From NCBI GenBank assembly GCA_033220425.1, contig CM065647.1, forward strand, positions 2,852,001-2,916,000: a DNA stretch of 64,000 nt, given 5' to 3'. Numbering within the stretch: the first letter of the stretch is position 1; every line of letters begins with the position of its first letter. A program made the translations under genes and the position numbers. This document shows positions 2,464-22,010 of the stretch, piece by piece. Below the pieces are notes generated by a model. The model saw only the letters and a list, made by a program, of their open reading frames with translations. It was not told the DNA's origin and searched no databases. The DNA comes from Lepraria neglecta. Taxonomy: Eukaryota > Ascomycota > Lecanoromycetes > Lecanorales > Stereocaulaceae.

Positions 2464-3264
2464 TGTTTGCTTCCAGATACAACATTCTACATCGTGCTTT
2501 GGCACCAACGTGCTCGCTATATGACAAATTATCTAAAACTAAAGCACTTGTCATGCTCATAGCATGCGCAAACCAGCAGATAAACGCACTCGGTGCGAAG
2601 CTGGAAAATCCCAGAGCCAGGATTGGTAGGGATCTTCTTGACAACTTCTCCGTGCTAAATAATCACTACTCTGGAGCATAGCGCTCCAATTACATCGCAA
2701 AGCTGTGTGTGTTTACAAAGAGAGTGCGGGGTCTTGTATACTGCCAGGGCAAACATCCGTGGTAACTAGGAAAGCCAGTGGATGAGCGAACACCATTCTT
2801 GGCTTACTCAGGCAAAAGCCCCAGCAATTCATTCATTGGATTTGCAAGCCAGCCTCGGGAAAGCTTCTTGATACAATTTCTGCAATCCCAAGGGTACGAG
2901 GCCCGTGAAATCGCCGCATTCTGAAGGGATCTAACCCACTTGTTGGCAGAGTCTAAGCTCTACAAAAGTTATTCTAGAGCTGCAGTCAGGGTCTTTGGGT
3001 GAGGAAATTGGCAAAACGCTACATCCGAAAGCTCAGAACGGCCTTTGCCAGCCGCCTCCTGTTACTGAACGGTCTCAAAAGTATGGACGTCTTCCGATCC
3101 AAAGGGAGCTCCCAGGGGTACGGCCCCGGGTCAACTCAGAGAGAAGAGGGCTCAATCAATGCAGTAAGATCCGAGAGCAAGCATCGCATGTCGACTACTT
3201 ACAAGTCACCATTTCATTGTACCCTTGAAAGATCTCAATTTGGACAGGCATGAGGAGGGTGTAA
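2464..3264. other. intergenic, nothing convincing
   Basis: Short overlapping frames on both strands have no recognisable domain or codon pattern. I annotate no gene here. Confidence 0.55.
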
Positions 3265-6542: not shown

Positions 6543-9500
6543 ATGTCTTTCGGAAGACCTGCATTCCACGCCCGTCTTGTTCTCCTCGCGAGCTCTTCGC
6601 TGCACGGTCCCAAGACTCAACATTTTTGCCATTTTGCTAGGAAGAGCGCACCCTCACTCGCCTTTACACACTCGTTCAAAGCAACTTCGATACGATCCTT
6701 CGCCACCATGTCACCCATTGAACGTGTCACAGACAAGCTAGAGGCTCCAGATCTTGACAATAGATCATATCTAGTCATACGACTACGGAACAAGCTCGAA
6801 GCCCTTCTTGTACACGACCCAGATACAGACAAAGGAGGTGCAGCTGTCAACGTCAATGTTGGAAGCTTCAGTGATGCAGATGATATGCCAGGTATGGCCC
6901 ATGCGGTGGAGCATCTCCTGTTCATGGGTACCAAGAAGGTATGCACTCCAAACTAGCCCTAGAATCTGGCTTATCATTTCCAGTATCCAAAGGAAAACGC
7001 CTACAACGAATACCTGACTGCACATTCTGGCTACTCGAACGCATACACTGCAGCTACGGAGACAAATTACTATTTCGAGGTGGCTGCATCGGCAGAGCCT
7101 GGCTCGGAAGCCACCACCAACGGCGTCCCATCATCTCCTCTCTATGGAGCCCTCGACCGCTTCGCACAGTTCTTCATAGCCCCGCTCTTTCTTTCCTCTA
7201 CACTCGACCGTGAGCTCAAGGCGGTGGACTCCGAGAACAAGAAGAACCTACAGAGTGACAACTGGCGACTATCTCAGCTTAACAAGTCCCTGTCAAACCC
7301 AAAGCATCCGTATCACCACTTTTCTACCGGCAATCTGCAGACACTAAGAGATGAGCCACGGAAGAGGGGTGTGGATGTGCGAAAGGAGTTCATCGACTTT
7401 CACGACAAACATTACTCTGCCAACCTGATGAAGCTAGTCGTACTAGGGAAAGACTCGTTAGACGAGTTGGAGACCTGGGTCGGAGACCTTTTCGCTGGTG
7501 CTCATAATAAGAACCTCCCTCAAATGCGATGGGATGGGCTGCAACCGTACACAAAAAATGAGCTTATGACTCAAATATTTGCCAAACCTGTCATGGATCA
7601 AAGACTGCTGGATATACACTTTCCCTATCAGGATGAGGACTATATGTACGAAACACAGCCAAGTCGCTACATCAGCCACTTGATCGGACATGAGGGACCT
7701 GGAAGCATCCTTGCATACATCAAGGCAAAGGGCTGGGCCAATGGACTATCAGCTGGGCTTATGAATGTTGGGCCTGGATCAGCCTTTTTCACCGTCTCCA
7801 TCAAGTTGACTGAAGAGGGTCTCAGAATCTACGAAGAGGTGGTCAAAGCCGTCTTCCAGTACATATCCCTTATCAAAGAGCATCCGCCTCAAAAGTGGAT
7901 CGTTGAAGAAGTCAAGGGCATGGCAGAGGTGGACTTTAAGTTTGAGGAAAAAGAGTCTGCGAGCAACTTTGTCCGGTCGATGTGTAGCACAATGCAAAAA
8001 CCGCTACCTCGAGAATGGCTTCTCAGTGGTACGAATCTCATACGAAAATTCGATTCCGATGCCATCACGACCGCCTTGAAGTATCTGAGAGCGGACAATT
8101 ATCGATTGACTATTGTCAGTCAGACATATCCAGGTGATTGGGATATGAAGGAAAAATGGTACGGTACGGAATATAAGGTGCAGCCCATCCCAGCTGAATT
8201 TGTCGCTGCCGTCAAGAAAGCCGAAGCGACGACTGCACAGAACAGGCTCTCAGATCTCCATCTACCACACCGGAATGAATTTGTACCATCAAAGCTGACA
8301 GTTGAGAAGAAAGAGGTTGAGGAACCCATGAAGGCGCCAAAGCTGATCCGCAACGACGAGACTGTTCGTTCGTGGTGGAAGAAGGATGACCGCTTCTGGG
8401 TGCCTAGAGCTAACGTCTTCGTCACGCTGAGGAACCCTTTAGCTTCGGCCGTCCCTGCCAATTCTGTGAAGACGAGGATATACTGTGCCCTTGTCAAGGA
8501 TGCTTTAGTTGAGTACTCGTATGATGCTGAGATTGCCGGACTTGAGTATGAGCTTGGAGACTACCATGTTGGCATGGGCATTGATATTAGTGGTTACAGC
8601 GACAAGATATCCGTGCTACTGGAGAAGGTCCTCACAACGATGCGCGACTTAGAGGTCAAGCCAGACAGATTCAAGGTTGTGAAAGAGCGGCTAGTACGAG
8701 GGTATCGAAATCACGACTTCCAGCAGCCGTACCATCAAGTTGGTGAATACACTAATTGGCTTGGTTCAGATAAAGGCTGGATCAACGAGCAATATTTGGC
8801 GGAGGTCACCCAACTCACGCCGGAGGATATTTCGAGTTTCTATCCCCAACTTCTTCGTCAACTACATCTAGAGATCCTGTGTCATGGCAACATCTACAAA
8901 GAGGACGCCCTCCGAGTGACAGACCTGGTCGAATCAACACTCCAGCCTCGAATACTCCCTCAAGCTCAATGGTCGGTGGCCAGGAACCTCATAATGCCAC
9001 CGGGGAGTGACTATACCTATCGAAGAACTTTGGGTGACCCGGCGAATGTCAATCACTGCATTGAATATTACCTTTTTGTTAGCAATGGTGTTGACAGGGA
9101 TTTGAGGGCAAAGACTTTACTCTTAGGCCAAATGACAGACGAAGCGGGCTTTGATCAATTACGGACTAAGGAGCAACTTGGTTACATTGTTTTTACGGGT
9201 CCAAAATCCGCAGCTACGACAATGGGTTACAGAGTGATCATCCAGTCAGAGAGGCCAACGGAATATCTAGAGGAGAGAATCAACGCTTTCTTGGCAATGT
9301 TTGGCAAGTCACTTGAAGGAATGTCGCAAGAGGAATTTGAAAGCCACAAGAAGAGTATCATCAACAAGCGGCTCGAAAAGCTCAAGAACCTTGATCAGGA
9401 GAGCTCCCGGCTCTGGAGTCACATCAGTAATGAGTATCTCGACTTCTTGCAGAGAGAGCATGACGTTGAGCATATTAAACCATTACAGAAGTCGGACATG

Positions 9501-10037
9501 GTCGAATTCTTTAACCACTACATTCATCCTACATCACCATTTCGAGCGAAGCTGTCGGTGCATATGATTGCGCAATCATCACCTAAGAGTGTGGCTGCAC
9601 ACATTTCACCCACTGAACAGAAAGAGAAGGTCACCACCTTGCTTGGGAAATATCTGACAACTATGGGCGTAAATGCCGATGTAGACAAGCTTACTAGCCG
9701 GCTGGAAGCGATCGACGTGGCCGGAGGAGATCAGGCTGGCATCGTTGACGCAGTTGCAACGTACCTAGATGAAGACGTACAGCTATCAGAAGAGGATACG
9801 GATGCAGTCCTTGAGCAAGGTCAGCAACTGCTAGGAACAGTCTTGCCCAGTCTTGGTATCGAAGTCAAACAGTCGGTTGATGGTGTGGAGGGGCAGAATT
9901 TCCCAGAAGCACCGCCTGTCAAGAAGACTACATTCATCGAGAATGTGCGTGATTTCAAGGCCAGCCTGGAGTCGACTGCCGGACGAAGACCAGTCACTGA
10001 TCTGACTGAGTTCGAGGATACGGAGCCTAAATTGTAG
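6543..10037 (+). CDS. STE23: M16 metallopeptidase, insulin-degrading enzyme / a-factor-processing protease
   Basis: Two exons, 6543-6938 and 6984-10037, are joined by a 45-nt GT-AG intron and encode 1149 aa. The inverted zinc motif HAVEH (H120, E123, H124) lies in exon 1. The third ligand, E209, is in the RELKAVDSE segment of exon 2, as in insulysins. The rest matches the four-domain M16A layout, including the ERPTEYLEERI region and the typical C-terminal domain. In yeast, Ste23 trims the a-factor precursor and degrades small peptides. From the first ATG the N-terminus is basic, rich in Ser, Arg and His, and free of acidic residues for about 50 residues, which suggests a mitochondrial presequence. 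A second in-frame ATG at 6708 sits in a strong context (ccaccATG) and would give a cytosolic form. The tail of about 150 residues is acidic and variable. Confidence 0.95.
6701..6710 (+). promoter_or_regulatory. internal translation start of STE23, strong Kozak context
   Basis: The second in-frame ATG (6708-6710) is preceded by cgccacc, a better match to the eukaryotic initiation consensus than the first ATG at 6543. Starting here removes the 55-residue basic leader. Confidence 0.5.
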
Positions 10038-10593: not shown

Positions 10594-12398
10594 ATGGCCA
10601 CACCAGGTCAGATTTTTGCCGTCCTTGTTGCACTCGCAGCACTCCTGGTTGGCTATGATGCAGCCAACGCTCCGGGCTATAGCCAGCCTCACATGCTCGT
10701 CTGGTGCCTTTTCGCCATCTTCATGAGCATTTCTTCGTGGCTCCTATGGGAATGTTGCCTGTATCCAGGGGTTTACAGCCCACTCCGCGACATTCCAAAA
10801 CCACCTGTAGGTCCTCTTTCTGAACATGCGAGAAGGGACACTGACCGTCATTCCAGGGCAACACCATTGTTTCTAGCCAGTGATACAAGCGGTTTCGTGA
10901 ACCTGTGGGTCAGTCGATGCGCAACTTAATAGATCTAGTCCCCAACAATGGCATCAGCCGATACCTAGGCATATTCAATCGCGAGAGACTAGTCGTCACG
11001 AACCCCAAAGCGTTGGCCGAAATACTCGTGCATAAGAGCTACGAATTCATTAAGCCCCCCCACTTTGTTTCTGGTATCGGACGAATCTTGGGTGTTGGCC
11101 TCTTGTTGGCCGAAGGAGAAGAGCATAAGGTATGTCATCAGGGCTGTAAGATCGTCCCATTCTCTGCTGAGTGTTCTATGCGATTCAACAGATGCAACGG
11201 AGACACTTCAATGGAGACACTTCAATCTAGCCTTCACGCGCCAGCGGATACAACACCTCTACCCACTCTTTTGGACGAAATCAAAGAGTCTGATCGACGC
11301 CCTGATCGCGAACAACTGGCACGCTCCGGACAAGCCTGAAAAATCTGTCGATGTTTGCGAGTGGATGAGCAGAGCTACCCTAAATATTATTGGCGTAGCC
11401 GGCATGGGCCAGGAATTCAACGCCATTCAACACCCCGACAGCGAACTTTATCAAACGTACCAGAAGTTGTTCAAGCCAAGTCAAATTGCGCGTGTCATGG
11501 GGCCAAATGGGTCTCATCATTCCTGGCTGGGCTATGCGCAATATTCCGTAAGTCTTGCTCCCGCTGAGAAGCCCGCGATTGTTCTGTCTAACCTCAAAAA
11601 CAGCATTCAACGAAACAGTGTTACCTCCTACGCAGCCAAGGTCATCAAGCGAATCTGCCGTTCCGCTATCCAACGTGCGAAGGCTAACCCTCCAGCCCCA
11701 AATGCCAAAGGCTCCTCCCTACTTTCCATTGCCCTCGCATCCGGTGGCTTCACCGATGACGACCTTGTCAACCAACTGATGACATTCTTGATCGCGGGCC
11801 ACGAAACCACTGCCTCCGCACTTTCCTGGTGTATCGTTATGTTGTGCAAGCATCCTGAGATGCAAGCAAAACTGCATGACGAACTCCGTTCTGGCCTCCC
11901 GAATCCGCGAACCACATTTCACTCTGTCAATGCAAACGAATTTGATCCTCTCCCATACCTCAACGCTATATGCAATGAAACTCTCCGTCTCTTTCCACTA
12001 GCCCCTCTGACGATTCGTGTCGCTGCGAAAATTACTACCCTCCTTGACCACGTCATTCCCAAGGGAACCCCCATTTTCCCCTCATGCGCAGTCAACGTGA
12101 GCCGTGATCTCTGGGGCCACGACGCTATGTAATGGAAACCCGAGCGTTGGATCGGGGACATGCGGAGCGATAGCGGCGGGGCTACAAGCAACTACACCTT
12201 TCTCTCGTTCCCACAAGGTGAGAGACGCTGCATCGGTGAAGGTTTCGCAAAAGGCGAATTGAAAGTATCGCTAGCTGCGCTCGTGAGTACTTTTGAGATG
12301 GAATTTGCGGAGGGGGGGAATGGAAGGGAGATGTGAAGAATGGGTTCACTGCGAAGCCTAGCGACTTGTTCGTGAAGCTGATGGTCGTGAACGAGTGA
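10594..12398 (+). pseudogene. cytochrome P450 pseudogene
   Basis: The N-terminal anchor (about residues 5-45) is followed by the Pro-rich hinge LRDIPKPP, then after an intron (10807-10856) by YLGIFNRERL and ALAEILVHKSY. A second intron (11130-11191) leads to RRHFN, the C-helix region. The I-helix AGHETTASAL, the ExxR motif ETLRLF, the PERW motif and the heme loop FPQGERRCIG are all present, so this was a complete class II fungal P450. It is broken in at least four ways: an in-frame TGA at 10881 (probably TGG in the ancestor), a 14-bp tandem duplication at 11199-11226 that shifts the frame, a TAA at 12130 just before WKPERW, and a frame change at a run of seven G at 12312-12318. Beyond that run, reading on gives a normal P450 C-terminus ending at 12398. 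The splice near 11548-11603 does not keep frame either. The substrate is unknown. Confidence 0.9.
11199..11226 (+). repeat. 14-bp tandem duplication inactivating the P450
   Basis: The word ggagacacttcaat occurs twice in direct succession (11199-11212 and 11213-11226). Removing one copy restores the conserved P450 reading through the C-helix. An insertion of 14 is not a multiple of three. Confidence 0.9.
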
Positions 12399-13423: not shown

Positions 13424-13774
13424 CTAATCGGCTCCAGCTTTCTCAATTGGCGTATTGATGAATTCCTCACCTACTGGCCGCTTGCCATTGCCAGCTCTCT
13501 CAATCTCCGAGGAGACTAACTCAGCGGCGTCGACGGTCCTCTTATCTTTGGTAGCTTTCTCAATTGGAGTATTGATGAACTCTTCATCGACGATTCTCTT
13601 GGCCTTTGTAGGCTTTTCGATGGGAGTGATGATGAACGCGTCGTCCACAGTGCGCTTCGCGTTGGCAATCTTTTCGATTTCGGAGGAGACGAGTTCGGCC
13701 GTATCGACGGTGCGCTTTTTGCTGCCGGCCTTTTCGATTTGAGAGCCTACAAGGGTCTCGTCGACGGTTACCTC
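13424..13774 (-). pseudogene. truncated Kex2-processed repeat precursor (paralogue of the 15942-16351 gene)
   Basis: On the minus strand the open frame 13774-13424 encodes six consecutive units of 17-20 residues. Five end in Lys-Arg (SKKR, NAKR, KAKR, KDKR, NGKR); the last is followed by a stop. Two unit types alternate: TVDxAELVSSEIEK and (T/I)VDxxFI(I/N)TPIEK. Lys-Arg is the Kex2 cleavage signal, so the product would be cut into a family of acidic peptides of about 18 residues. Upstream an in-frame TGA (13775-13777) closes the frame. No signal-peptide exon was found in the next several hundred bases, and the first unit is two bases out of register with the intact gene. I therefore read it as a 5'-truncated copy; a distant first exon is not excluded. 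Confidence 0.75.
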
Positions 13775-14781
13775 TCATTCCGGGTTATCTCAGCGAGTCC
13801 GAGGTCATCCCTATTCTTATGTTTATGTATTTCAACAAAACGGAAGGCTAACCACGTAAAAACGAGAGGTCAGGAATCCTACTAATCAGTGCCAATATCT
13901 CTGTTTCGATTGAGGACGATTGCCTAAGTAGAACCGTAAGTCAGCAATCGAAAATTCGATCCACTGACCCTCAGAGCCTAGATGAGTTAGACATCAACAT
14001 CGCCCATCCAACACACTGCGTGTTCACTTAAAGCGTGCTTCATGAAAGCTCTGGAATCCGTAGACGTGTTCACAAACTCAGAAGCCCAAAACGGAAACAA
14101 AGCATGCTCCTCTCGAACGCGTCAAAGCGCGATTTCTAAGAGAGGAATAGGGATGGATGAATAGCTTAAAGTCACAACCTTCTCTAAAGGTCATATCAGA
14201 ACTACAGAAGTCTTGTTCCGCTCTCCAGGCAATTGTTTCTAATCTGATGTTGAAATTTGGCAAGAGGAAGCCGCGCCCTAAACTGGGATCCAGAGATACC
14301 AAGGCAGTAGTCCCGTTAGGGTTAGCTAATGTGGTATGAATCAATCACCCACCTCTTTAGCCCCCAAAAAATCAGCAAGACAACCTATAAATCTTCAAAT
14401 TGGGCTGCTGATAAACAACTAAGACGGCTCGGTACGCCTTTCTTGATGGAGCTTGATACGTTATATTCTTGATTGGCCTCAGTGGTATCGCTCTGCAGCG
14501 CAGGTCTGCTTGTTTGCAGTCGCATGGCTTGTACAGGTTACAAAGATAACGAAGCTGTATCTTCGAGAAGCTATTTACATTCATAGATCAGTCTGCTCGT
14601 CAAGAAATTCTCCCAAACCAAGTCCGTCAACCCTCCTCCAACCTAGTTCTATCACAGATGTATTGAACATGCACCATAATCCATGCTGCGTTGTCGAGGA
14701 TCTTGCATGCAAGAAAGCCGTTAATTTAGACCAGACCAAGTGGCAGGTGGTTGCACATATTAACCGACCTTGAATCTCTCG
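13775..14781. other. noncoding stretch between precursor relic and Cys-rich peptide gene
   Basis: I searched the minus strand for a signal-peptide exon that could belong to the truncated precursor and found none. The minus frame at 14078-14344 has no hydrophobic start and resembles nothing known to me. Confidence 0.45.
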
Positions 14782-15041
14782 CTAAGTACAGCAAGTCTTC
14801 GTACCACACTTGTAGCAGTACGGTCCCACTGTGTCGACACCACGCTCTTTGATGGCCATCTCGGCAACTGCGTCAGAGGCACCTACGCACATCAGCATTA
14901 TAGAATAGAGGGTGGTTTCATCGAATCATTTGTGATTTTAGATGGCTGGCCAGGAAGCAACTTACCACTGCTCATGATGGGACTGGCCATAGCTAGTGGC
15001 AATAATGCAAGGAGCACAGTTGTGAGAGTAGGGAAATGCAT
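14782..15041 (-). CDS. tiny secreted Cys-rich peptide precursor, 58 aa
   Basis: Minus-strand exons 15041-14966 and 14882-14782 are joined by an 83-nt GTAAGT...GTAG intron and encode 58 aa. Residues 1-19 form a signal peptide with the core TVLLALLPLAMA. A short propeptide ends in ...AIKER, and the C-terminus is GVDTVGPYCYKCGTKTCCT. That 19-residue tail has four Cys and two Tyr and is probably the mature peptide. The cut after Glu-Arg is not a classic dibasic site here, but the duplicate at 19132-19203 has Asn-Lys-Arg at the same place. The intron position and the split Gly codon after the leader match the repeat precursor at 15942-16351. I know no homologue. It could be a defence or signalling peptide or a substrate of the nearby DUF3328 oxidase. 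Confidence 0.7.
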
Positions 15042-15941
15042 GCTGCTGGTAATGTGTATAGACAAGTGATTCCAGAGGCTGGTATTGTGCTAAATGTTGA
15101 AAGGCGAGAACTATTGGACTTAGATGTTGGGAATGGATGTCTTCTTATCCTTGAGCTATCAACGTGAGGTCCTTCCTTTCTTGGCATCAGCGCCGTTAGA
15201 CCAAACAAGCTCTGCAGTAGCCACGCCCTAAGGTAGGCCGGCAGTTGACGTTATACAATTTCTTGGCCAATCGCATCTAACGTTTCCCTGAGCAGATCTT
15301 CATATCACCGGAAACCATTTGCCGGCGGGATCTCGTCGGCGTCTTAATTCGTCGCTGCGGGGTGGGATCATCGATTGAGATTGGGGCAACAGTAGATATT
15401 GGGATGAGTGACTGCGGTGGCGGTGTGATCCGCGCAATATCAAGACCTATGGCTAATTGGAGTTCGGAGAGCAGCTAACTCTAGATGACTGCAAGTTTGC
15501 TCGCTTAGGTGCCCAGTAGCAGTGCATGCATGCAACCTTCCGGATCGAGACGTACTAGTGCTTCACGACAATGGATGGCAAAGAGTCTAGCCTTTTTACG
15601 CGGCACATTCTCAAATCAACTAGAAAGGTGCCAGTCGGTCTTCGATTAAGCTGGTGCACTTAGGATTTGGGTGTAGAGTAGAGCAATGTGGCTCCCAGAA
15701 CAGGGACTGGGCGTGAGGCTCTGCTCAGGTATAACTTTATATGGTAAGAACAAGGCGTTGAAATGGGTTTGAAGATGCATATTTGGGCTGAGTATCAAGA
15801 AGAATGCTCTAAGTGCGAGCTCGCAACAACTCAGTAAATCAAAGAAACACTACCTTTACTGCCCTGAACTCGCAAATCTCACCCGGCGAAAAAGTCAAAA
15901 CCACGTCAAAATAAGCAACACTACAGCCCACGTCTCGCCAT
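15042..15941. other. intergenic with a CGG-N10-CCG motif
   Basis: No gene is seen. The motif at 15309-15324 (CGG, ten bases, CCG) has the form bound by some Zn2Cys6 regulators and lies about 270 bp upstream of the Cys-rich peptide start. One such match can occur by chance. Confidence 0.35.
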
Positions 15942-16351
15942 TCAACTGTTCTCCTGTATGCTCTTGGAGGCGTCGACGGTCCTTTTGTCCTTGGTAGCCT
16001 TTTCGATCGGAATAATAATAAACGCGCCATCCACAGCACATTTTGCGTTGCCTGCCTTCTCTATTTCGGAGTAGACCAATTCAGCTGTGTCGACGGTGCG
16101 CTTGGCTTTAGTAGCTTTCTCGATGGACGGCTCGCACACTTCAGTCTCGTCGACGGTACGTTTAGCAGAATTGCTAACTATACCTGTGTACAAAGATCAG
16201 TGTGATGCTATGAGTAGTTAGAAGTGATGGACCACAACATTGATGAAGGGCGAGGAGACCTACCAACATCTGCGAGTGGTTTTGCGGCTGGTGCGGCGAT
16301 GGACAAAGTCGATAGTGCGAGAAGCACAGCAACGAGGGAAAGGCGGTGCAT
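15942..16351 (-). CDS. secreted Kex2-processed repeat precursor (KEP / fungal RiPP-type), 109 aa
   Basis: Minus-strand exons 16351-16264 and 16183-15942 are joined by an 80-nt GTAGGT...ACAG intron. Residues 1-20 form a signal peptide (hydrophobic core SLVAVLLALSTLSIAA). After a short leader the protein is built from repeats that begin TVD and end in Lys-Arg: a leader ending SNSAKR, then a unit ending KATKAKR, one with TAELVYSEIEKAGNA, one with GAFIIIPIEKATKDKR, and a final TVDASKSIQENS. One site has become Lys-Cys instead of Lys-Arg, which would fuse two units. This is the architecture of fungal Kex2-processed repeat proteins, some of which are dikaritin precursors modified by UstYa-type oxidases. 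A DUF3328 gene starts about 800 bp away. Only one unit holds a Tyr, so a classic Tyr-crosslinked core is uncertain. Confidence 0.8.
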
Positions 16352-17093
16352 GTTGATCAATCGTATGAGGACGATGGTCGAGTATGAAAGCCTCGTAGGT
16401 GTTGGAACTTCTGAGGTCGTTGAAACAGAATATGAGGAATGTGGCCGAGGGATGTTGGCTTTATTACTCCAACGGCTACCCTTGTCGGGTATCACCGTTG
16501 CATCTTGGCAAGAGTATCGTATTGCGTGCTGGTGATTTGGAACGCTGCAGGAAATTCCGATGACTTAGGTTGCATCGCCGAGCTTGTCCGAAGCTTTTGC
16601 TATCAGCTATAGGTAAGTAGGACTCTTCACGACAGCAACTGTGCTATCTTTTCACTATTTGTAAGCTCTTATTTAAGCTCGTCGATGCAAGAGCCCGAAA
16701 CATGTTGCTGCAGGCAGTGTTCTGGGTCAACTGAAGAGATCATGTGCATGGAAGAGATCGAGACCACACAAAGACCTACCTGCAAGGGTAGAAGTCTCCG
16801 ATCAAGGAATGCATGGTGTGAGATTCGTAGCTTGAATATACGAGCTTGGCACTGGATGAGCTAACAGAGAGTCTACACGAAGATATCTAGACAATCTTCG
16901 TAAAAGGGATGCTGCATTTTGGCAACGGTGATACCGAACGAATCATGAACAGGTCGCGGGGCGTTGATAAGTCGATGAGGTATTCTGTGAAATGTTGGGA
17001 GAGCAGGACTGTGTTCGGGATCGTTCATGTTTTTTACCTTCACGCTCGTTCTCCTCCACATTCTGCAGTACGAACAAAGCAAGTCTCGAGGTT
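16352..17093. other. divergent promoter region between repeat precursor (-) and UstYa-like gene (+)
   Basis: The two genes start facing away from each other about 800 bp apart, so this stretch probably holds both promoters. A minus-strand frame crossing it is a shadow of the UstYa exon and has no start of its own. Confidence 0.5.
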
Positions 17094-17100
17094 TATAAAA
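17094..17100 (+). promoter_or_regulatory. TATA-like box of the UstYa-like gene
   Basis: TATAAAA lies 59 bp before the ATG at 17159. A short upstream frame (ATG at 17109, seven codons with stop) lies between them and could dampen translation if transcribed. Confidence 0.45.
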
Positions 17101-17158
17101 GTGCAAAACATGGCATTTCAATCTCAGTAGAAGAAAATAGGAAAGCCGGAATCGGTAT

Positions 17159-18137
17159 ATGAAGCTAGCGAATCTTCCGAGACTCTCTTGCAAGACTTCG
17201 AGCCGCGAGGCCTGGAGGAATCCTCGCAAAGTGTTGCCATGGATCATGCACGGCATTTTTCTCGCTATTTCAACCTTCGTGTTCATCTCCGCCTTCGCGA
17301 AAGGTGAAGAGCCTGATTGTATCAAGCGTCACAAAGCTTACTGTGAGTATGGTCACCATCAGCCGTAACCTTGGTGCTGATCATGATGTTATCGCAGCAC
17401 CGGCCAATGAAGCACTCAGATACCTTGACGAGCCGACTCAATTAAATGAATCCTTCACCTTTCCATCCATCTACCGCGGGGACCCAAACGATGAGATTGA
17501 TGCCGCTTGGTCAAAGATCACTGACAGTAAGCCAGCTTCACTCTTCGAGCCAACTAGGATCTTTTGAACACCGATTGACCATGCGCAGTCGGAGCCATGA
17601 GAATCTCAGAAGAGGAGCTTGAGAAGTTGAACCCTTTATTCGCAAAGAGCGCCGTCAGATGCCCCGAGAAAATGGGCGGAGGATACATGGGCAGTCTTGA
17701 GGTCTTTCACCAGCTGCATTGTGTGGTAAAATCCTCAAAGCTACCTCATGCTAGGGAACCATAGGCTGACCCCCAGATTGCAGAACCTCCTGCGGCAATA
17801 CACACACACCCAGAATACTACAAGATGCGCATCATTTCTTGGGAAGACCCAGAAGATACAGTTCGCACGCATATTGGTATGCAGCCTCTGACTACAACAA
17901 CTCCTAGATCACTGCATCGAGCTTCTCCGCCAGAAGGTCATATGTGATATAGATGTTGGTGCTATGACCTACAACTGGGTCACTGTTCGAGACGCTCCTT
18001 GGCCTAATTTCAATACATGGCATAAGTGTATGGATTTTGACAAAGTGCTGAAATGGGGTCTCGACCACCAGGTTCCCTCAAAGGGTGAAAAGATGAGACA
18101 GACTGCCAGGATGACGGTGCTACCAACACCGCCATGA
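17159..18137 (+). CDS. UstYa-family (DUF3328) oxidase
   Basis: Five exons (17159-17342, 17398-17526, 17589-17725, 17777-17876, 17908-18137) give 259 aa. The order is typical of the family: a short cytosolic N-terminus, one transmembrane helix at about residues 26-46, then a lumenal domain with YSPANEAL, SIYRG, DAAW and the two signature motifs HQLHC (145-149) and DHCIE (184-188). Characterised members (UstYa/UstYb, cyclochlorotine CctO) carry out oxidations and cyclisations on fungal peptides. A repeat precursor stands divergently about 800 bp away. Odd point: just after HQLHC the expected NLLRQYTHPEYY is out of frame by two bases at an AC run (about 17800-17810). Only the upstream acceptor at 17776 keeps the frame, and it changes ten residues to IAEPPAAIHT. 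The gene may be functional with a changed loop, or newly damaged. Confidence 0.85.
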
Positions 18138-18218: not shown

Positions 18219-18909
18219 TTACATGCTTCGATTAGAAGCAGATCCCATCTCCACGTCACCCTCCGCAGGCAAATTCTTCCCAGACACTGGGTCAAATACC
18301 CCCGGTTTCTGGAGGCCAAGATGCCCACCAGCGTAGCGTAGGTTCAACCCCCGGGGTGGCTCACGGGGCTCCGGAGTCGCCGTGTACTGCGACGCAACGT
18401 CATCGAATAAGTTGTCGCCAGGAAATGCTGGCTCGATCCCTGCCTGTGCCCCTTCAAGAGCGCATTGTTAGAGCACGATCAAGAGACATTATTGTACAAT
18501 CATAGCTTACCAGGCGCATCTTCTCGCTCGCTTCTCACAACATCCTTGTCATCAATGGCAGCATCGTTGGTATTGTCGACACTCAAAACCTCAAATCCTT
18601 CCGTCAAGTCGTCCCAATTGTGCAGCCCCAAGGACACCAGGTGCACTTCCGGATTGTTCTGAAAAGCTTGGCTCACGCGCTAGAAGCCAATCCAGCGCTC
18701 CCACACTCAGATATAGCGGTTTAGGCGTATAGACTCTAGCTTGCGTTTTCTGCGCTGAAGTATTGCAAGAATTCATCGGCGAAATGACCGCGGATGAGCG
18801 GCACTGACTTCATCTTTATCACGACAATGCGGCGATGCTTGTAAGCCGTCATCAGATCCTCGCGGTCACGCGCAAGCTTCTTTGGGCTCTGTTTGACGGA
18901 TTTAGGCAT
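18219..18909 (-). CDS. hypothetical protein, 188 aa, with a GC-AG intron
   Basis: Minus-strand exons 18909-18745, 18679-18511 and 18451-18219 join in frame. The first intron (18744-18680) would start with GCAAGC, a GC-type donor; the second is GTAAGC...GAAG. The N-terminal half is basic and contains a segment like a small alpha/beta domain (HRRIVVIKMKSVPLIRGHFA, then NPEVHLVSLGLHNWDDL). The C-terminal half is disordered, acidic and Pro/Gly-rich, with RGLNLRYAGGHLGL. No family recognised. It lies between the UstYa-like gene and the second Cys-rich peptide copy, so it may belong to the same locus. If the GC donor is not used, the gene is broken by a TAG at the end of exon 1. Confidence 0.5.
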
Positions 18910-19131
18910 GTTTGAAGGTGTGATAGAGCTTGGTGAGTGCTGTGTCTGATCTAGGTAGAGCCTGGAGTGGTCGCAAGTGTGTGTTGAGTCTGAGGTTCGT
19001 AGGTGTTGATGCTAGAGTGTACTGAACTTAGAAGATGTGGGCAGCTGCCTAAATTTATAGTTGAGAGGGCTGGGAAATGAAGCCTCATGTTCGCGCAAGT
19101 GTGACAAGGCTACGTGCGGAATTAAGCGGCT

Positions 19132-19203
19132 GTCAACAAGCGGGGCGTCGACACTGTGGGGCCCTATTGCTACAAGTGTGGTACAAAGACTTGCTGTACC
19201 TAG
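19132..19203 (+). CDS. second copy of the Cys-rich peptide exon (terminal part)
   Basis: The plus-strand frame reads VNKR followed by GVDTVGPYCYKCGTKTCCT and a stop, identical in all 19 residues to the C-terminus of the gene at 14782-15041. At the DNA level the 21 codons from Arg to stop differ at eight third positions, all synonymous. The first bases after the stop (tagcgagagatt) are also shared. Here the peptide is preceded by a proper Lys-Arg Kex2 site. The frame is closed upstream by a TAA at 19123-19125, so an upstream exon is required. I found no signal-peptide ATG within about 300 bp. A neighbouring frame just upstream encodes SCSRKCDKATCGIKR, also Cys-rich and ending in Lys-Arg, but one base out of phase. 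The 5' end is unresolved. Confidence 0.55.
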   Translation, partial: VNKRGVDTVGPYCYKCGTKTCCT

Positions 19204-19561
19204 CGAGAGATTTGAAGTAAGTCAATATATCCGGTCACTTTGTCAATTGATCTGTGTGGCTGAAGCTAACCGCATTCAGGAGCATCAGATCTCCGGGCCC
19301 ATGGATGTGGGACTGGTGGATGTTGAGGATATGCAGTTGATGGGATGAGGATAATTGTATATAAATGAGAAATATTATTTGGCAATACAGCCCTACTGTC
19401 TCTGTAACCTGCAATCATGACGTACAAACGAATTTAAATGCGTTGCAGACGTTATCCGTGAGGTCAATCGGACTTGTGGCGTATCAGTATAGGCACTTGG
19501 TGCAGAGAAACGTGCCAAGCCTCGGCAGACCTGCCTCATGTAATTGCCAAGAAACCACTTA

Positions 19562-19682: not shown

Positions 19683-22010
19683 ATGGATCGACAATCAGCC
19701 TACTCTCTCAGCGTGCTTGCCCCAGACCCAGATGCCAGCGAAGGCTCCCGGAGCCAAATACAAGCGCAGCTGCGAGAGTTCATACTCGAATTCCGCTTAG
19801 ACAATGCCTTCATCTACAGGTATGCGCAACTTCCTTTCGAAAGTCCTCCTACTGATGAATCCAATGAAGAGACCAATTACGAGAGAACGTCCTTGTCAAA
19901 CAATACTACTGCGATGTCGATGTTGCCCACCTGATCTCCTACAACGAAGAGCTTGCGCACAAGCTTACGACACAGCCAGCCGACATCATACCTCTCGTAT
20001 GTAGAAATCATCCTTTATCGACTACAACTTACTGAACACGCGCAGTTCGAAGCAGCTATCAAAGAATGCACCCACCGCATCGTCTTCCCCTCCCAGAAAG
20101 CCAGCTCCCTCTCCCTACCTGAGCACCAGCTCCTCCTCCACTCCTCCGTCTCCCAAATCTCCATCCGCGATCTCGATGCGACCAACATCTCCCACCTCGT
20201 ACGGATACCTGGCATCGTCATTGGTGCATCTACACTCTCCTCGAAATCGACCGCACTCTACATCCAATGTCGAAATTGCCAGCATTCGGAAACGTTGGCA
20301 GTAAGCGGTGGTATATCTGGAGTGACACTTCCACGAGTCTGTTCCAGCAAGAGAGCTCCAGGAGACCCAACAGACAAATGCCCTCTGGATCCATATTTTG
20401 TGGTGCATGAAAAGTGCCAATTCATCGATCAGCAGATTTTGAAGCTACAAGAAGCGCCTGACCAAGTGCCAGTGGGAGAGCTGCCGCGCCATATCAAGAT
20501 CTCAGCAGATCGATATCTCACCAATCGGGTGGTTCCGGGTTCAAGATGTACGATCATGGGAGTCTTCTCGATCTACCAAAACAAAGAGTCGAAGGGATCT
20601 GGAAATTCAGCTGTGGCCATCCGAACACCATATCTTCGAGCCGTCGGCATATCGACTGATGTGGACCATACGGCAAAGGGCAATGCAATCTTCTCAGAAG
20701 AGGAAGAACAAGAGTTCCTGGAGATGAGCAGAAGACCAGACTTATACGAGGTCTTCGCTAATTGCATTGCGCCATCGATATACGGCAACAAAGACATCAA
20801 GAAGGCTATTGCATGTCTACTGCTTGGTGGCTCGAAGAAGATTCTACCAGATGGCATGAAGCTTCGAGGAGACATCAACGTCCTACTGCTTGGTGACCCC
20901 GGAACAGCAAAATCTCAGCTTTTGAAATTCGTTGAGAAAGTTGCACCAATCGCTATCTACACTTCAGGCAAAGGTTCTTCAGCGGCTGGTTTGACAGCAT
21001 CAGTACAGCGAGACACCAATACACGCGAATTTTATCTCGAAGGAGGTGCAATGGTGCTCGCAGATGGTGGTGTAGTCTGCATAGATGAATTCGACAAGAT
21101 GAGAGATGAAGATCGAGTAGCCATACACGAAGCGATGGAGCAGCAGACCATCTCGATAGCCAAAGCAGGTATCACGACAATCTTAAACGCCAGAACATCA
21201 GTACTCGCAGCAGCAAATCCAATCTTCGGTCGATACGATGACCTGAAGACGCCTGGAGAGAACATCGACTTCCAGACTACCATCCTCTCTCGTTTCGATA
21301 TGATCTTCATTGTCCGGGACGAGCACGAGAAGGGACGAGACGAGAGAATAGCTAGACATGTTATGGGTATTCAGATGGGAGGACGAGGAATGGAGGAGCA
21401 GACAGAAGCAGAAATATCAGTGGAGAAGATGAAGCGTTATATCAGCTATTGCAAATCGTGAGCCCGCTTTCCCCCTTTCTTTCCAATCCTTATCCCGGTA
21501 GCTAATAATGTTTTCAGACGCTGCGCACCCCGCCTCTCCCCTGAAGCTGGAGAAAAGCTCTCTTCACACTTCGTCTCCATCCGCCGCCAAGTCCACTCCG
21601 CTGAGATCGCCTCCTCCACACGCTCCTCCATCCCCATCACTGTCCGCCAACTGGAAGCCATCATCCGTATCACGGAATCCCTCGCAAAACTCTCCCTCTC
21701 TCCAATCGCTCTCGAATCTCACGTCGACGAAGCTATTCGCTTATTCCTTGCGTCGACGATGGATGCTGTGACGCAAGGCGAGGGTCAAGGAAGCAGAGAA
21801 GTGATGGAGGAGGCGAGCAAGGTGGAAGAAGAGCTGAGGAGGCGGTTACCTGTGGGTTGGAGTACAAGCTTGGCGACGTTGAGGAGGGAGTTGGTTGAGG
21901 GGAGAGGGTGGAGTGAGCAGGCGCTTAATAGGGCATTGGTTGTGCTGCAGAGGAGAGAGACGGTGCAGATTCGGAATGGGGGTAGTCAGGTTTATAGGAG
22001 TGGTGCTTAG
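19683..22010 (+). CDS. MCM5: DNA replication licensing factor, MCM helicase subunit 5
   Basis: Four exons (19683-19819, 19870-19996, 20046-21457, 21518-22010) encode 722 aa, close to the usual length. The N-terminal domain carries a zinc-binding set starting CRNC at about residue 163 and continuing with later Cys residues. The AAA+ core has Walker A GDPGTAKS (about 371-378), Walker B CIDEFDKM and the arginine-finger motif LSRFD. The C-terminal part resembles the winged-helix end of Mcm5. The protein is one of six subunits of the Mcm2-7 ring loaded at origins in the nucleus. Three introns are GT-AG, two near the 5' end and one near the 3' end. The promoter carries MCB boxes, which fits G1/S control. 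Confidence 0.97.

Follow-up and report, generated by a model that had tools for sequence, protein, structure and literature searches.

Dikaritins such as ustiloxin, phomopsin, and asperipin-2a are ribosomally synthesized and post-translationally modified peptides (RiPPs), in whose clusters a secreted Kex2-type repeat precursor (KEP) stands beside a DUF3328/UstYa gene with HxxHC motifs. In one survey, DUF3328 genes accompanied 1758 of 7878 KEPs, Tyr being present in 65.6% of the repeats of these KEPs and hence absent from about a third; DUF3328 genes were enriched beside KEP genes, pheromone KEPs were without DUF3328 in all but three cases, and 2560 of the 7878 had no homologue (Umemura, 2020; PMC7329392). 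Work on CctR placed the HxxHC(x)nHxxHC pattern of DUF3328 proteins within a four-helix coiled coil, where it forms a binuclear copper site; alanine substitutions in the motif abolished all activity (PMC12435403). In a survey of RiPP clusters of lichen-forming fungi, UstY homologues carrying HxxHC are reported to be widespread in Lecanoromycetes (Pasinato and Singh, 2025). Here we describe a locus in a 64,000-nt stretch of DNA (the window; assembly GCA_033220425.1, contig CM065647.1, positions 2,852,001 to 2,916,000) from Lepraria neglecta, a lichen-forming fungus (Stereocaulaceae, Lecanorales) with a chromosome-scale genome (Pfeffer et al., 2023, as cited in PMC11353741). It combines two repeat precursors with a UstYa gene, and we favor, with moderate confidence, its reading as a partly decayed locus of dikaritin-like type (KEP plus UstYa) for ribosomal peptides. 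The main texts of Le Marquer (2019) and Umemura (2020) contain no word beginning with Lepraria, PIEK, or TVD, and no description of the locus was found in the literature, for which the repeat sequence was not a search term and a listing in a supplementary table is possible.

Precursor 1 (KEP1; 15942..16351, minus strand) consists of two exons (16351-16264 and 16183-15942) parted by an 80-nt phase-1 intron. The spliced product is identical, letter for letter, to P0004, the annotated L. neglecta hypothetical protein OEA41_003418. A secreted precursor with Lys-Arg-ended repeats had been predicted at this position from the letters of the window, and it is present as placed, now with a gene structure and an annotated counterpart. 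Its 109 residues open with a hydrophobic start (MHRLSLVAVLLALSTLSIAAPA), signal-like as judged by hydropathy, followed by four TVD/AVD repeats ending in Lys-Arg (KR), with KC in place of KR at one dibasic site; the last repeat ends differently from that of the L. finkii relative P0002. With its predicted signal start and KR-ended repeats, this protein resembles the KEPs of Le Marquer (2019) and Umemura (2020). Precursor 2 (KEP2; 13424..13771, minus strand) holds six tandem KR-ended repeats, ending TPIEKAGAD, and has neither its 5' end nor a signal exon. Hydropathy scanning of 13770-15000 revealed no upstream signal start, so the earlier description of a truncated second precursor held.

The repeats are of two types, TVDxAELVSSEIEK and TVDxxFIxTPIEK. 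Tyr occurs in none of the six repeats of precursor 2 and in one of the four of precursor 1, which is not of the PIEK type, and the repeats are therefore mostly Tyr-free, as had been stated. Among nine PIEK-type repeats from the window and its relatives, eight carry Phe and one (P0003) carries Tyr; besides these there are two shorter variants, one bearing Tyr and the other no aromatic residue. The pattern of the TPIEK type, acid-x-[FY]-I-x-T-P-I-E ([DE]x[FY]IxTPIE), is by eye reminiscent of EDYXI and YVIPID, a likeness that may serve as a lead and does not imply homology. To that extent the original prediction, that the repeats match no known core, stood only in part. Weak Pfam matches of the precursors (Qua1, YdaS_toxin, His_Phos_1, AbbA, and LsmAD) all fell under the cut-offs and were set aside as chance. 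An identity as alpha-pheromone was likewise rejected, since by eye the repeats show neither two conserved cysteines (e.g., RFCHLPGQGCSK or a PCW end) nor PYGXPXG, the motifs quoted for comparison from PMC6339444. At E <= 1, copies of the precursor lie in two places only in its own genome. Precursors 1 and 2 share a 131-nt ungapped block with 30 differing positions, 18 of which are third positions of codons (dN, nonsynonymous divergence, 0.13; dS, synonymous divergence, 1.21). Because of this excess of silent change, the repeats are seen to have been under purifying selection in the past, after the duplication.

The UstYa gene, OEA41_003419 (17159..18137, plus strand), adjoins OEA41_003418. Splicing guided by the family yields five exons (17159-17342, 17398-17526, 17589-17725, 17777-17876, and 17908-18137), and the product of this model matches Pfam UstYa with 176 bits over positions 7-218 of 220. 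The UstYa profile had no match in the PDB at E <= 1. The first copper motif, HQLHC, lies at 17708-17722, and the ~10 residues that follow it (IAEPPAAIHT) are unlike those of any of the other 15 sequences in alignment A1, which omits three short members (P0018, P0020, and P0021) of the 19 UstYa matches and retains the short P0012; alignment A2 holds all 19. A slip of the reading frame at this spot would be the simplest explanation of the divergent stretch. Within the second motif, HIDHC, lies a 31-nt intron (17877-17907), the other introns of the gene being 55, 62, and 51 nt long. In a pattern search of the genome, three paralogues showed the same split, with introns of 52, 59, and 68 nt, and the motif was unsplit in four others; the search did not catch the remaining UstYa regions, and two further unsplit matches were not UstYa-like. 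All four motif histidines are kept under the family-guided splicing, and the annotated protein, P0005, is without the second HxxHC motif. Since an odd stretch follows HQLHC, a 31-nt intron interrupts the second motif, and P0005 omits that motif, the window's oxidase is probably not functional. The DUF3328 gene and its HQLHC had thus been read correctly, while the second motif, noted as DHCIE, is intron-split, and the defects of the gene had been missed. Short open reading frames stand beside the gene at 18591-18909 (minus strand), and that at 18591-18776 matched no Pfam family.

The remains of a cytochrome P450 (11365..12336, plus strand) lie farther upstream as two Pfam p450 pieces, 11365-12132 (111 bits) and 12160-12336 (37 bits), with an in-frame stop between the halves, which bears out the earlier view of a dead P450. 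We speak of decay because of this internal stop, the anomalies of the oxidase, and the absence of a signal exon from precursor 2. The secreted Kex2-type precursor beside a DUF3328/UstYa gene with HxxHC is shared with the ustiloxin, phomopsin, and asperipin-2a clusters, and the kind of locus had been recognized rightly from the start. Unlike those clusters, the window has mostly Tyr-free repeats, a probably defective oxidase, and no tyrosinase match (none of the 16 matches in the genome is in the window, and the nearest on the same contig is ~2.5 Mb away); it also adds a Cys-rich peptide gene with a partial copy. Since Tyr and tyrosinase are lacking, we call the locus dikaritin-like rather than a demonstrated dikaritin, and its product is putative. 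In the proposed pathway, precursor 1 would enter the endoplasmic reticulum by its signal peptide, and Kex2 would cut after Lys-Arg to release acidic peptides of ~17-20 residues (basic ends counted) in two alternating types, TVDxAELVSSEIEK... and TVDxxFIxTPIEK.... A membrane-bound, two-copper UstYa acting on precursor 1 would then oxidize a side chain, most plausibly Phe or Tyr of the TPIEK type, giving a cross-linked or hydroxylated peptide. A precedent for Phe is victorin, which is cyclized through Phe (PMC9233826) and which, unlike the window's peptides, is a chlorinated toxin of an oat pathogen. The oxidase of the sequenced strain has most likely lost its activity, and any peptide from precursor 1 would therefore be linear.

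The L. neglecta genome gave 42 UstYa matches, grouped into 22 regions (the window's own, 20 of 10 kb, and one of 7 kb). When these were scanned for KR- or RR-ended repeats, a KEP was found in 7 of the 22, compared with no hits in eight dinucleotide-shuffled sets of the 22 regions and none in positions 20001-64000 of the window. The scan detects precursor 2, and its design does not suit the intron-split precursor 1. A minimum piece length of 6 residues first gave 13 stretches, three of which were precursor 2, met repeatedly through overlapping loci and in the window; the limit was then raised post hoc to 10 residues, with one copy per region, and 10 stretches were left. Of these, two of IVEGSSKD type in L021 and an antisense one in L015 added nothing to the KEP count. 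An eighth KEP, in L017, was found post hoc by way of its signal exon, was recognized by eye, and falls outside the shuffled controls. The window locus is therefore one of several KEP-UstYa loci in this genome and is not singular. Tyr is present in the repeats of L013, L014, L015, L018, and L024 and absent from those of L017 and L021, and in three of the eight KEP-bearing regions the repeats are free or nearly free of Tyr. Judged by eye, these KEPs are preceded by a signal-like start that frequently lies in a different frame or is cut off by a stop, which suggests a short intron in these genes. The possibility of a new locus and chemistry, raised by the original prediction, is thereby narrowed: the kind of locus stands, but KEPs occur in 7 of 22 UstYa regions plus one, about a third of DUF3328-linked KEP repeats elsewhere are also Tyr-less, and the oxidase is probably non-functional.

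Several of these regions are of interest in themselves. L018 (C2:3977401-3987400) contains UstYa matches and, at 2738-3148, a KEP of eight Tyr-bearing DASEDAIAYPDSYKR-type repeats, a cleaner dikaritin-like locus than that of the window. L016 (C1:6120501-6130500) has two UstYa matches and a tyrosinase match ~2-3 kb away, and the KEP scan found none there. L017 encodes, on the minus strand from offset 6215, a KEP-like protein without Tyr (SPEKDVGDAGIMKR FPEEDVGDAATMKR ...); its signal exon agrees with that of the window's Cys-rich gene at 29 of 57 positions. In L015, the tandem repeat at 1529-1781 is open on both strands as KR- or RR-ended, and the minus strand (ANDADEADGNYQGKR) is the better fit to a KEP.

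Relatives of the precursor were few. Four of 198 candidates passed at E <= 0.01, namely OEA41_003418 itself, one from L. finkii, and two further records; in viral contigs, 38 pattern matches yielded no confirmed relative. Linkage was examined indirectly, by comparing the 19 UstYa matches (E <= 1e-20) with the records that hold the three other precursor relatives. None of the 19 carries a listed longest contig of 31,234, 72,533, or 31,250 bases, those of the precursor relatives, a result that could also come from unpredicted genes, from the word-based search, or from the showing of each record's longest contig alone. Apart from the window's own UstYa, the highest-scoring one shows 48% identity over 92-93% of the length, and partial relatives reach 53-57% identity over about half the length. 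Conserved linkage of precursor and DUF3328 gene in relatives, by which the original prediction had proposed to be judged, thus found no support in this one indirect form. Unlike the present locus, the two clans of the lichen survey mentioned above were reported to be devoid of conserved repeats, and Lepraria goes unmentioned in the survey's main text (Pasinato and Singh, 2025).

The tiny Cys-rich secreted peptide gene that had been noticed within 3 kb proved to have two exons (14782..15041, minus strand; 15041-14966 and 14882-14782) separated by an 83-nt phase-1 intron. Its 58-residue product starts with MHFPTLTTVLLALLPLAMASPIMSSG and, after the intron, reads KER and then a final 19 residues, GVDTVGPYCYKCGTKTCCT, with four cysteines and two Tyr. 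A second copy of these 19 residues and the stop, overlooked earlier, lies at 19144..19203 (plus strand), preceded by NKR and within a nucleotide similarity that spans 19128-19228. All seven nucleotide differences within the 19 codons are synonymous, and random placement of seven changes preserved the peptide in 3 of 200000 trials; four of the six residues ahead of it differ between the copies. The signal exon of the Cys-rich gene matches that of precursor 1 at 33 of 57 positions, a level that codon shuffling reached in none of 20000 trials. Among the other 528 signal-like starts, most of which are probably not genes, the next best matched precursor 1 at 26 positions and the Cys-rich gene at 29 (in L017). 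Since both introns are also of phase 1 and similar in length (80 and 83 nt), the first exons of the two genes probably have a common origin. Seven changes on 13 synonymous sites in the Cys peptide, together with the dS of 1.21 for the precursors, would be compatible with one old duplication of the gene pair. The sole hydrophobic start upstream of copy 2 is at 18134-18137, where the UstYa gene ends, and was rejected as a signal exon for its distance.

Searches for relatives of the Cys-rich peptide gave two candidates, neither at E <= 0.1, and its exact DNA pattern had no match in viral or in bacterial and archaeal contigs, collections not expected to include fungi. A single PDB match (E 1.1) was taken as chance. 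Scanning for other Cys-rich tails beside UstYa genes turned up many unrelated ones, as did the background, and none resembled the window's. The peptide is the most novel part of the locus, odd and strongly conserved. One could imagine a second product here, present or past: a secreted 19-residue, four-Cys, Tyr-bearing peptide that arose when a KEP-type signal exon was joined to a new C-terminal peptide, released by a basic-site protease, held by selection, and once among the substrates of UstYa. Such a product would define a class of Cys-rich RiPPs or signaling peptides new to fungi; we regard this as very unlikely. On either side the locus is flanked by an M16 peptidase and an MCM gene (window 7428-10037 and 20556-21461), which are probably housekeeping genes.

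Several observations weigh against a partly decayed dikaritin-like locus. The reading frame of precursor 1 is complete, the UstYa frame stays open with family-guided splicing so that an altered protein may be made, and the anomalies of this gene could possibly stem from sequencing error. That 31 nt falls below what can be spliced is a presumption from general knowledge. The presumed reactive position is Phe rather than Tyr in eight of the nine PIEK-type repeats, and an orthologous UstYa in the precursor-bearing relatives is not supported, given 0 of 19 linked records (by longest contig) and a best relative of 48% identity. A rival explanation is a cluster that still works, in which splicing removes the 31-nt intron (or the assembly errs at that spot), the altered UstYa is made, and Phe/Tyr repeats are cross-linked. 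The intact precursor 1, the 176-bit UstYa with its four motif histidines under family-guided splicing, and the victorin precedent for Phe (PMC9233826) are all in keeping with it. Nevertheless, two separate anomalies fall in the copper-motif part of UstYa, the annotated P0005 omits the second motif, and three further parts (precursor 2, the P450, and the second Cys copy) are likewise incomplete, so that a working cluster appears unlikely.

An oxidase that was never needed is a further explanation: the precursor would yield linear signaling or host-interaction peptides, and UstYa would be an incidental neighbor. Such an origin would suit repeats that mostly lack Tyr, an oxidase that looks dead beside a precursor that does not, and the failure to tie any of the 19 UstYa matches to the records of the three other precursor relatives (judged by the longest contig of each record). 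It sits poorly, however, with KEPs in 7 of 22 UstYa regions by scan and an eighth by eye, and with the enrichment of DUF3328 beside KEPs, from which pheromone KEPs stand apart with three exceptions (PMC7329392), and we consider it quite unlikely. Highly improbable, in our estimation, is a UstYa whose substrate is the Cys-rich 19-residue peptide rather than the repeats. Its two Tyr, a signal exon resembling that of precursor 1, and the purely synonymous differences between its copies could be taken that way, but UstYa action on such a peptide is not described in the parts consulted of PMC7329392 and PMC9233826, and relatives of the peptide were found neither by the relative search nor in viral and bacterial/archaeal contigs or the PDB. 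In addition, copy 1 is preceded by KER. This is not a canonical Kex2 site, which makes cleavage of copy 1 at that point less credible.

A partly decayed, dikaritin-like locus thus remains the reading we favor, and the locus seems to catch a cluster in decay. KEP-UstYa pairs are common in this one lichen genome, and repeat sequences are now supplied for lichens, for which the 2025 survey had noted no conserved ones in either of its two clans. Peptide chemistry has a clear target in the Cys-rich peptide, whose two copies differ by synonymous changes alone. Should Phe repeats be acted on by the oxidase of related species, the substrate range of copper DUF3328 proteins would be widened.

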